From the NCBI RefSeq assembly GCF_047663525.1, contig NC_092606.1:6136501-6200500 (forward strand): DNA of 64,000 nt, written 5' to 3'. Each line of letters starts with the position of its first letter. Position 1 is the first letter of the stretch. This DNA comes from Anas platyrhynchos (Eukaryota; Chordata; Aves; Anseriformes; Anatidae). The notes below the pieces were generated by a model that worked only from the letters and a program-made list of their open reading frames with translations, ran no database searches and was not told where the DNA came from. The position numbers were made by a program, and so were the translations under genes. Shown piece after piece: positions 35,201-37,332 of this stretch.

Positions 35201-37332
35201 CTTCCCTCAACCCCTACTCATGAGTTATGTTATGGTAGTAAGCTTTGTGTCTCTAATGTGTGGACTACAGGCTAGATTACTTAGAAAAGAGCAAGAAATT
35301 TGAAGATCGACTGAAAGAACTCAAGTCTGAAATTCATGCTTTGAAGCTAGAAGAAAAACAGTCTGGGCTTTACTCTCATTGGACTGAAGTCCTGGGATCC
35401 TTGGATCGCTCCTTAGGAAATGTAAGTATCCTAAATACCTGCCTCTTTTTCTGGCACAATGATAATAATATATATATGTATGCCAAAGGTAATTGCTATA
35501 TTTCAATTCAATGTACATTCTTTAGGACCTTTGATACTAAAATATTTTAAGTGATAACAGAGAAGAGGACTAGTCATGACAATAAATAAAAAAAAATTCC
35601 ATGGCAGGATACCAGTAACATAAACAAAAAAATAATAATTTGTTTTTCAGGTTATGAAATCACAGTAAGGTTTACTGTCATGGAACAAACTAAATTCTTG
35701 TAACTTAATGCATTTAAATGTGGTTTCTCATAGTTTGCATCACATTCTCATTCACGTGCTTTGTGGTTGCTATTAATCTCTTGTAAAAGTCTTGGCTTTT
35801 TTTTTTTTTTTCCCCTTCAGGCAGTGAGGAACTAAACTCAGATCTTCGTCATAAGTTTCTTGTTACTTACATAAACGCTCTTCCTGAACCAGGGGAAGAA
35901 TAGAGCTGTCTTTGCTTTTCCAGATTGCTCCACATATAATAAAAAATGGCCCTAAGTAAACTGTTTGAGAGAGAAGGGAGGCTTGGAAAAAATGAGGAAA
36001 GATGGCCTGTGTGCTCTGGCTGGCTATGCATTTGATGTTTTCTGGCTTAATGAATGTTGATGGGGAGAGGGCATTAATTTTCCATGTGTTCTTTTCTTTT
36101 AAAGACCCCGTCATGGATGAAAACCTTCGAAACTGGAGATTCGCTGGATATAAATCTTCAAAGACCTTTCCCTGCTTACTCATTAAATACTACAAGCAGC
36201 TGGCCTTGTACCAACAAAATTCAGCATGCAGTGCCAGTGGAAAAGTCATCTTTTCAAACAAATTCCTTGGTTGCCAATAGTGTAGGCACAGGATCCAGAA
36301 AACAGATTATAAAGGTAATCAGATTTATAAGTAAATTCCCAAATATTGACTAGAGGCTTTAGAATTCAAAGAAGTAAAGAATGGCTGGCTTTAGGGAATG
36401 GTTTTATCCAGCTCTGTCACAGCCTCTGAAATGACAGGCCACAAAGCATGGCTGTTCCACAGGTTTGGAGGCCCTGCACTGGAGCAGCATTCAGGGCTGT
36501 TGAGGCCACTTGATTTTTCTCACTTATGATCTAAGCCTTGGTAAATGAAAATGATGCCCATATGCAGTAGGAGGATTTGTTAAATTTTATTTGTATCAGC
36601 CAGGCTTGGAAATGAGAATGTGCTCTGAGAGAGCTTAAAACAGACTGCCAATCTTTCTGGTTTTAAGGGATGGGGATAAAGATATCAAAAAATGCCTAGA
36701 TTTCTACAGCTCAGTTCTTCCGTCATTTCTCTCAAAGAATCCTAAAATAATAATGAATTGGGTCTTATAAAACAAAACAATTTTTTAAACTTTACTGGAA
36801 TGGAAAACATAGTACGTGTTCAAGAAGAACGGTAAGATCGTGCACTCCTGTACATATGGAAGGAAATCAGCTTTCTTCAGGCAATGCTAATTGTGCAAGA
36901 TACTACAAATAAAGTAAGCCTGATGTATTTGCTGTTTTCTATGAACAGAACTGGGGATTTTCAGGATCAGTCAGAGTGTCTAGCATGCAACTTCCAAGGT
37001 CAGAACCTAGAGGACTGTAGACTTAGAACTAAAAGGAGAATAGTTCAGTGTAGCAGCAATTGAGGAAGCAGCTCTTTCTATTGCAAATAAGAGAAACAAA
37101 TATTTTAGGACTAACCTAATGTAGACAGTTGTGAGGCAAATAGGCTTGTTTCAAGAGGGAAGAAAAACCATTTGCAGGGCATGTTGCAAAAGGCTCTAGT
37201 TTGACAAAACAGAAGAATTAGACCAAAACAAAGTAGGCTTTGCTTTCTGTAGGAATTCAAAGTAGAACTAATTTTTCTTATTTAATTTGCACCTAGGTTC
37301 AGCAGCATGACTCGGATGTGATCTACATTTGA
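19307..37332 (+). CDS. NF2L: NF2L, merlin-like FERM/coiled-coil protein, 17 coding exons, complete
   Basis: A second merlin-type protein (merlin, NF2, links membrane and cortical actin to Hippo growth control). Coding exons: 19307-19396, 21061-21186, 21594-21716, 25791-25874, 26667-26735, 26959-27041, 28042-28117, 28568-28705, 30486-30560, 31351-31464, 31908-32030, 32576-32793, 33700-33802, 34548-34675, 35271-35421, 36105-36314, 37297-37332. All have GT/AG and joining phases: 648 codons plus stop (human merlin 595 aa). Lengths of exons 2-14 equal or nearly equal human NF2. FERM is about residues 10-305 ([28 protein letters not shown] blue-box equivalent; [20 protein letters not shown] [16 protein letters not shown]). 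The helical, charged coiled coil is about 306-470 ([20 protein letters not shown]). The tail keeps KRLS at about residue 510, the equivalent of merlin Ser518. It then has a 70-codon Ser/Thr/Asn-rich exon and ends [11 protein letters not shown]. The merlin N-terminal MAGAIASRMSF extension is absent; translation probably starts [15 protein letters not shown] true paralogue rather than the NF2 orthologue, judging from the divergent tail. Confidence 0.93.
19905..19926. repeat. Poly(A) run, about A22
   Basis: Simple mononucleotide run in NF2L intron 1. No flanking retrocopy was recognised. Confidence 0.9.
20269..20297. repeat. Poly(T) run, about T29
   Basis: Simple mononucleotide run in NF2L intron 1. 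No flanking SINE or retrocopy was recognised. Confidence 0.9.
24620..24732 (+). mobile_element. CR1 LINE 3'-end fragment
   Basis: In NF2L intron 3. The text 'CTGTCCTTGACAACATTCAA', then 'AGCAATCTGGTCTAGTTGGAC' in outline, then GACCTCCAGAGGT..TCCTGACCTAAAATTC follows the familiar 3' end of avian CR1 (..TTCAAGGCCAGGCTGGA..GACCTCCAGAGGTCCCTTCCAACCT..). It is strongly 5'-truncated, as most CR1 copies are, and moderately diverged. Confidence 0.8.
28543..28565 (+). repeat. T23 run forming the acceptor tract of NF2L exon 8
   Basis: An uninterrupted run of about 23 T immediately precedes the AG (28566-28567) of NF2L exon 8. It serves as the polypyrimidine tract. Such a mononucleotide run is likely to vary in length. 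Confidence 0.9.

Follow-up and report, generated by a model that had tools for sequence, protein, structure and literature searches.

In merlin, the product of NF2, helices alpha2C and alpha3C of the C-terminal domain bind the F2 and F3 lobes of the FERM head, and the terminal helix alpha4C acts as a lock onto F3, anchored by a salt bridge between Glu260 and Arg588 of alpha4C (PMC6515277, section 4.4); Tyr132 and Glu215 are named as further FERM contacts of the tail (PMC6515277). The head-to-tail bond is weak (Kd 3 uM), the open form is described as driven by lipid binding, and it is a long-standing dispute which of the two states of merlin, open or closed, suppresses growth (PMC5889391). Deletion of the last two residues (merlin dEL) is reported to make the protein more open and to increase its binding of ASPP2, YAP1 and Lats1, and an N-terminal segment is needed for PIP2-driven opening and full dimerisation (PMC9942953). 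Two alternative endings of human merlin are described, of which that of isoform 2 reads PQAQGRRPICI (PMC6515277, PMC10244618) and is given as occurring only in sarcopterygians (PMC6515277). In a yeast two-hybrid assay, exchange of the ends encoded by exons 16 and 17 left the reported interactions unchanged except for one weak case (PMC10244618).

For vertebrates other than fish, two family surveys give just one merlin gene (PMC6515277, PMC3522738), and a second gene, NF2L, is therefore easily overlooked. In chicken, NF2L has a gene name of its own and figures in a list of genes with differential expression in the hen shell gland (PMC6347800); among the matches listed in a literature search, no title or abstract opening dealt with its C-terminus. 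In fish merlins, Danio nf2a among them, C-terminal sequence is described as missing, the Blue Box as changed and Lys289 as lost, although the absence in teleost nf2a may, according to its authors, reflect partial assembly (PMC1315344).

The NF2L locus and its FERM head

The window, a 64,000-nucleotide stretch of duck DNA on contig C20, carries a gene that is best explained as NF2L, an old merlin paralogue that shares the first 15 exons and has an intact FERM head; its orthology to chicken NF2L is taken from the name. A tblastn search of the genome (1.26 Gb, 42 contigs) with human merlin as the query located 15 merlin exons, all on the + strand and spanning 19307 to 35421 (Table 1). Together with two putative exons at 36105-36314 and 37297-37332 they form an open frame of 648 residues in 17 exons, of which all 16 introns are GT-AG. 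Eleven of the 15 exons equal the human NF2 exons in length, exons 1, 8, 13 and 15 differing by whole codons, and the vertebrate NF2 layout is found throughout exons 1-15, with 14 introns at matching places and phases. A FERM_N profile search listed 29 matches in the genome, of which one falls at this locus and another at NF2, and all four of FERM_N, FERM_M, FERM_C and ERM_helical exceed the Pfam cut-off in NF2L. Ten of the 47 listed open reading frames were scanned for neighbouring genes, without a Pfam match at E 0.01.

Table 1. Features of the NF2L locus, in window coordinates
Feature	Position	Strand	Evidence and remarks
NF2L coding exon 1	19307..19396	+	tblastn with human merlin, GT donor; without merlin's first 8 residues unless an upstream start is used
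NF2L exon 2, F1 lobe	21061..21186	+	tblastn, splice sites, FERM_N match
NF2L exon 3	21594..21716	+	tblastn, splice sites
NF2L exon 4	25791..25874	+	tblastn, splice sites
NF2L exon 5	26667..26735	+	tblastn, splice sites
NF2L exon 6, Blue Box YQLTAEM	26959..27041	+	tblastn, splice sites, alignment
NF2L exon 7	28042..28117	+	tblastn, splice sites
NF2L exon 8, F3 lobe; T251S, P257E, N259S, E260A relative to merlin	28568..28705	+	splice sites, alignment
NF2L exon 9	30486..30560	+	tblastn, splice sites
NF2L exon 10	31351..31464	+	tblastn, splice sites
NF2L exon 11	31908..32030	+	tblastn, splice sites
NF2L exon 12, helical domain	32576..32793	+	tblastn, splice sites
NF2L exon 13	33700..33802	+	tblastn, splice sites
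NF2L exon 14, Ser518 context KRLS kept	34548..34675	+	splice sites, alignment
NF2L exon 15; match to merlin helix alpha1C over the first 33 residues, to neither alpha2C nor alpha3C over the last 17	35271..35421	+	alignment, ERM_C, shuffles
Rival exon after exon 15, tail AVRN-stop	35821..35835	+	best acceptor listed for 35440-38500; 14.2 in trained, 15.3 in vertebrate matrix (percentile 1.000)
Putative NF2L-only exon, 70 codons, phase 0-0, Ser/Thr 18/70	36105..36314	+	acceptor 99.7th, donor 97.4th percentile (vertebrate matrix)
Rival last-exon start, other short tail	37253..37285	+	acceptor stronger than 37297 in both matrices
Putative last exon, 11 residues and stop 37330-37332	37297..37332	+	AG-preceded phase-0 frame 37297-37329; weak acceptor
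AATAAA pair, poly(A)-like	38407..38428	+	others at 37738, 38269

The ordinary NF2 gene lies on the minus strand of contig C16, intact and 94.8 % identical to the human protein (563/594). Both alternative endings are present, so that the components of the usual choice between them are retained in the NF2 of this genome: the isoform 1 exon encodes LTLQSTKSRVAFFEEL, and the isoform 2 exon (C16:5486253-5486288), in phase 0 after an AG, encodes the same PQAQGRRPICI as in human, an identity that suggests strong constraint on the alternative exon.

NF2L equals duck NF2 at 396 of 549 aligned positions, to residue 558. Identity amounts to 77, 83, 74 and 74 % in F1, F2, F3 and the helical domain, and falls to 43 % in residues 479-525 and 52 % in 526-558. 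According to the alignments, Ser518 in its KRLS context, Glu204 and Ile546 are kept (the last two counted by eye), residues whose significance in merlin is treated in PMC1315344. The Blue Box YQMTPEM is altered to YQLTAEM (5/7), with retention of the final Met, which all merlins are said to share (PMC1315344). In the F3 lobe, which holds the merlin tail, Glu260 is changed to Ala and Thr251 to Ser; Tyr132 and Glu215 are kept. NF2L thus shares with isoform 1 of duck merlin the 15 exons and their phases, the three-lobe FERM head, the helical domain and KRLS518, and differs from it by E260A, the Blue Box, the missing alpha2C-alpha4C and, if translation starts at the first ATG, the missing first 8 residues.

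Upstream of this ATG the frame stays open for at least 20 codons (19247-19306) and contains a further in-frame ATG as well as an AG. The upstream frame is unlike MAGAIASR; the N-terminus may be longer than in the first-ATG model.

The C-terminal domain and the end of the gene

The Pfam ERM_C profile, comprising 77 positions, was compared in the C-terminal pieces of the two NF2 isoforms and NF2L. It matches duck NF2 isoform 1 over positions 2-77 (100 bits) and isoform 2 over 2-62 (73.7 bits); in NF2L the match is limited to 3-40 when the C-terminal piece is scanned (30.4 bits) and to 3-39 when the full-length protein is (26.5 bits, above the cut-off), and a complete C-terminal domain with lock helix is absent. 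By the helix description of PMC6515277, a match ending at 39-40 of 77 removes alpha2C, alpha3C and alpha4C. Judged from these matches, the loss is larger than that in isoform 2, which likewise has no AFFEEL lock helix and is made by cassette inclusion, but keeps the C-terminal domain through residue 579. A genome-wide, exon-level ERM_C search at E 0.001 found nothing on the NF2L contig, the matches being NF2 exon 15 (75.2 bits) and two other loci.

The breakpoint can be placed within exon 15. Its proximal part aligns to merlin with a score of 95 (maximum of 2000 shuffles, 53), the distal part reaches a local score of 19 against NF2, inside the shuffles (P 0.10, n=2000), and the 81-residue new tail shows no likeness to alpha2C-alpha4C (P 0.89, 2000 shuffles). 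Because similarity is lost inside exon 15 itself, the loss of the lock is independent of the choice of last exon.

A lock exon further downstream was sought on the + strand from 35422 to 30 kb beyond the window end, 58.6 kb in all, with the opposite strand as control. An isoform 1 (AFFEEL-type) end before a stop scored at best 10, against 11 on the opposite strand and 75 for itself, a value recovered at NF2. The last 8 residues of this end (best 18, control 16, self 39), the end of NF2 exon 15 (28, 23 and 114) and a moesin-type end (16, 12 and 72) came out slightly above the control and far below the self score. No convincing hidden AFFEEL exon thus emerged in this stretch, in agreement with the earlier note; with no alternative lock exon found, its description of NF2L as the reverse of the usual NF2 splice choice is not supported.

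Taken together, NF2L is probably, though well short of certainly, an old merlin paralogue that has kept 15 exons and the FERM head, and whose C-terminal domain has decayed after alpha1C and given way to an unrelated tail, so that the protein behaves as constitutively open.

The continuation of the frame after exon 15 was examined with two splice matrices, a vertebrate one, its percentiles relative to the AG and GT sites of the window, and one trained on the other exons of NF2L and NF2. The acceptor at 37297 scores 2.9 in the trained matrix, the lowest of 16 NF2L acceptors, and 6.3 in the vertebrate one (92nd percentile of window AGs), compared with 10.4 at 37253 and 15.3 at 35821; with 4.7, the donor of the 70-codon exon ranks last of 16 in the trained matrix. 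Since the acceptor at 37297 is weaker than those at 37253 and 35821, the exact C-terminus is putative. For the last-exon start proposed at 37297, the frame stands, being phase 0 after an AG with 11 residues and a stop at 37330-37332; use of its acceptor is not confirmed. The alternative that this exon is unused, and that NF2L ends via 37253, via AVRN from 35821 or by read-through of exon 36105, has somewhat less than an even chance. In its favour both competing acceptors outscore 37297 in both matrices; against it, an ACTAAT resembling a branch point is seen by eye upstream of 37297, four of the 15 other NF2L acceptors fall below 6.3 in the vertebrate matrix, and the trained matrix, from which both putative exons were left out, is biased against them. 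Such an ending would be compatible with the preferred reading of NF2L as a merlin with a decayed C-terminal domain, as the protein would still be without the lock.

The acceptor at 35821 precedes the 70-codon exon, and its four-residue tail is a possible alternative ending. The 70-codon exon itself has an in-frame codon usage of -0.29, about 1 SD above intron windows (-0.43, SD 0.15), and another frame of 36105-36314 scores better (-0.09), which makes its coding-likeness weak; AG sites that open at least 70 codons account for 8.8 % of 3008. At the sensitivity of the search, the DNA of this exon and that of the last exon each occur at one place in the genome. A repeat origin was discarded, as each stretch matched its own place only, by a search in which very frequent words are passed over. 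The tail encoded by the two exons together has no Pfam match up to E 10, and a search of solved structures with the tail and part of exon 15 returned merlin over the first 27 residues (E 0.11) and glutathione S-transferases (E 0.19-0.27), taken as chance.

Likeness of the last eleven residues to NF2 isoform 2

The earlier note had read the last 11 residues of NF2L as an isoform 2-like tail at the same intron phase. Its individual observations are borne out: the isoform 2 exon of this genome's NF2 also encodes 11 residues in phase 0 after an AG, and both peptides have Q at position 2 and end in I-x-I. As an isoform 2-like ending beyond chance, the tail does not hold up. It is identical to PQAQGRRPICI at 3 of 11 positions, with a BLOSUM62 score of +2 (self scores 57 and 61); when the tail is permuted 100,000 times, a score of at least +2 is reached in 1.4 % of cases, and so are 3 identities (1.4 %). 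The control set comprised the 11-mers that stand directly before any stop on either strand of the window and of the NF2 stretch, 5081 in all with the NF2L tail counted in: 221 of them (4.3 %) score as high as the tail, and in 106 (2.1 %) three or more residues are identical. For the 366 that in addition come after an in-phase AG, the counts are 12 and 7. Q at position 2 together with I-x-I turns up in one of the 5081, presumably the NF2L tail itself; this pairing was picked after both peptides had been seen. Within the 58.6 kb downstream, the best stop-adjacent 11-mer reaches 19 against isoform 2, as does the opposite strand, compared with +2 for the tail.

Position and DNA point the same way. 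The NF2 isoform 2 exon directly follows exon 15, and in the best model of NF2L the putative 70-codon exon lies in between, so that the two exons share phase 0 and, in that model, not their place. The 60 bases on either side are identical at 17/60 and 15/60 positions, without similarity, and the 36 bases of exon and stop at 18/36; the alignment of the terminal exons, named beforehand in the earlier note as a refuting check, thus returned likeness near chance. The other marks of an isoform 2-type ending, a C-terminal domain kept through residue 579 and a cassette that alternates with a lock exon, were not found in NF2L, the latter with regard to the + strand of the 58.6 kb.

Hence it is very improbable that the last NF2L exon is a homologue or functional twin of NF2 isoform 2 exon 16, fixed as the sole ending. 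The equal length and phase, the permutation P of 0.014 and the rarity of Q2 with I-x-I speak for such a relation, and, with residues 479-558 only 43-52 % identical, common descent would predict about five shared residues in an 11-mer, so that three leave room for it. Homology was nevertheless rejected on the score controls, the intervening exon of the best model and the unrelated flanks; moreover, the identity of the duck NF2 exon to the human peptide indicates that this exon is normally conserved, and alpha2C-alpha3C, kept by isoform 2, are gone from NF2L. If NF2L is an early-vertebrate duplicate, the isoform 2 exon could not have been inherited, its ending being given as seen only in sarcopterygians (PMC6515277). 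The likeness, being near chance, is best regarded as a coincidence.

Proposed openness, age and fate of NF2L

In the preferred reading, NF2L has lost alpha2C and alpha3C, which bind F2/F3 in merlin, and alpha4C, which locks onto F3, and carries in their place an unrelated tail of at most ~100 residues, the precise end of which varies with the putative splicing. Without the lock, NF2L presumably cannot close head to tail and would act as a constitutively open, FERM-accessible merlin; with no closing tail and Glu260 changed, its FERM head should be permanently accessible. The KRLS site equivalent to Ser518 is kept and could still be marked, and kinase control independent of closure may persist. 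In the first-ATG model the 8 N-terminal residues are missing as well, and a permanently open protein might not need them. The proposed state resembles that of merlin dEL, in which the head-tail bond is weakened at the C-terminus (PMC9942953), with the difference that dEL lacks two residues and NF2L three helices, in exchange for a new tail. Some docking of this tail may persist through Tyr132 and Glu215, and as the head-tail bond of merlin is weak, its loss may change little; the small effect of exchanging the ends in the yeast two-hybrid assay (PMC10244618) points the same way. As to the more open state put forward in the earlier note, the sequence supports openness (ERM_C to 39-40/77, no convincing AFFEEL exon in the scanned 58.6 kb, E260A, T251S) and not a fixed isoform 2 choice; an open merlin that arose by independent degradation of the C-terminal domain is plausible. 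If true, a natural merlin unable to close would exist beside normal NF2 in the same animal, a genetic test of the open/closed dispute.

At the 26 sites where human and duck NF2 differ, NF2L sides with human at 7, with duck NF2 at 5 and with neither at 14. This split gives no sign of a recent origin from the NF2 of this lineage and fits a duplication before the bird-mammal split. The three features described for fish merlins, Danio nf2a among the sequences, namely a missing C-terminus, Blue Box changes and the loss of Lys289, recur in NF2L, which in the alignment has Gln at the residue compared with nf2a; this suggests that nf2a may be the orthologue of NF2L.

Two further readings concern the fate of the gene. 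A decaying NF2L, with the lost C-terminal domain as the first sign of pseudogenisation, would account for a C-terminal region that has diverged far more than the head, but is improbable, given that the frame is open through 15 exons, that the FERM lobes are 74-83 % identical and that NF2L is listed as differentially expressed in the hen shell gland (PMC6347800). At the other extreme, NF2L would be an ancient merlin dedicated to a permanently open state, retained in birds, perhaps also in fish under the name nf2a, and lost in mammals, which has shed the lock helix and its E260 anchor and gained a Ser/Thr-rich tail with partners of its own; we regard this as speculative and rather unlikely. The I-Y-I end of NF2L would fit the class II PDZ ligand consensus, which also fits 12 % of the control 11-mers.

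Among the FERM exons other than exon 3, the lowest conservation is that of exon 8 (64 % identity to NF2). Here P257E, N259S and E260A surround a kept W258, beside the site that receives the lock helix in merlin.
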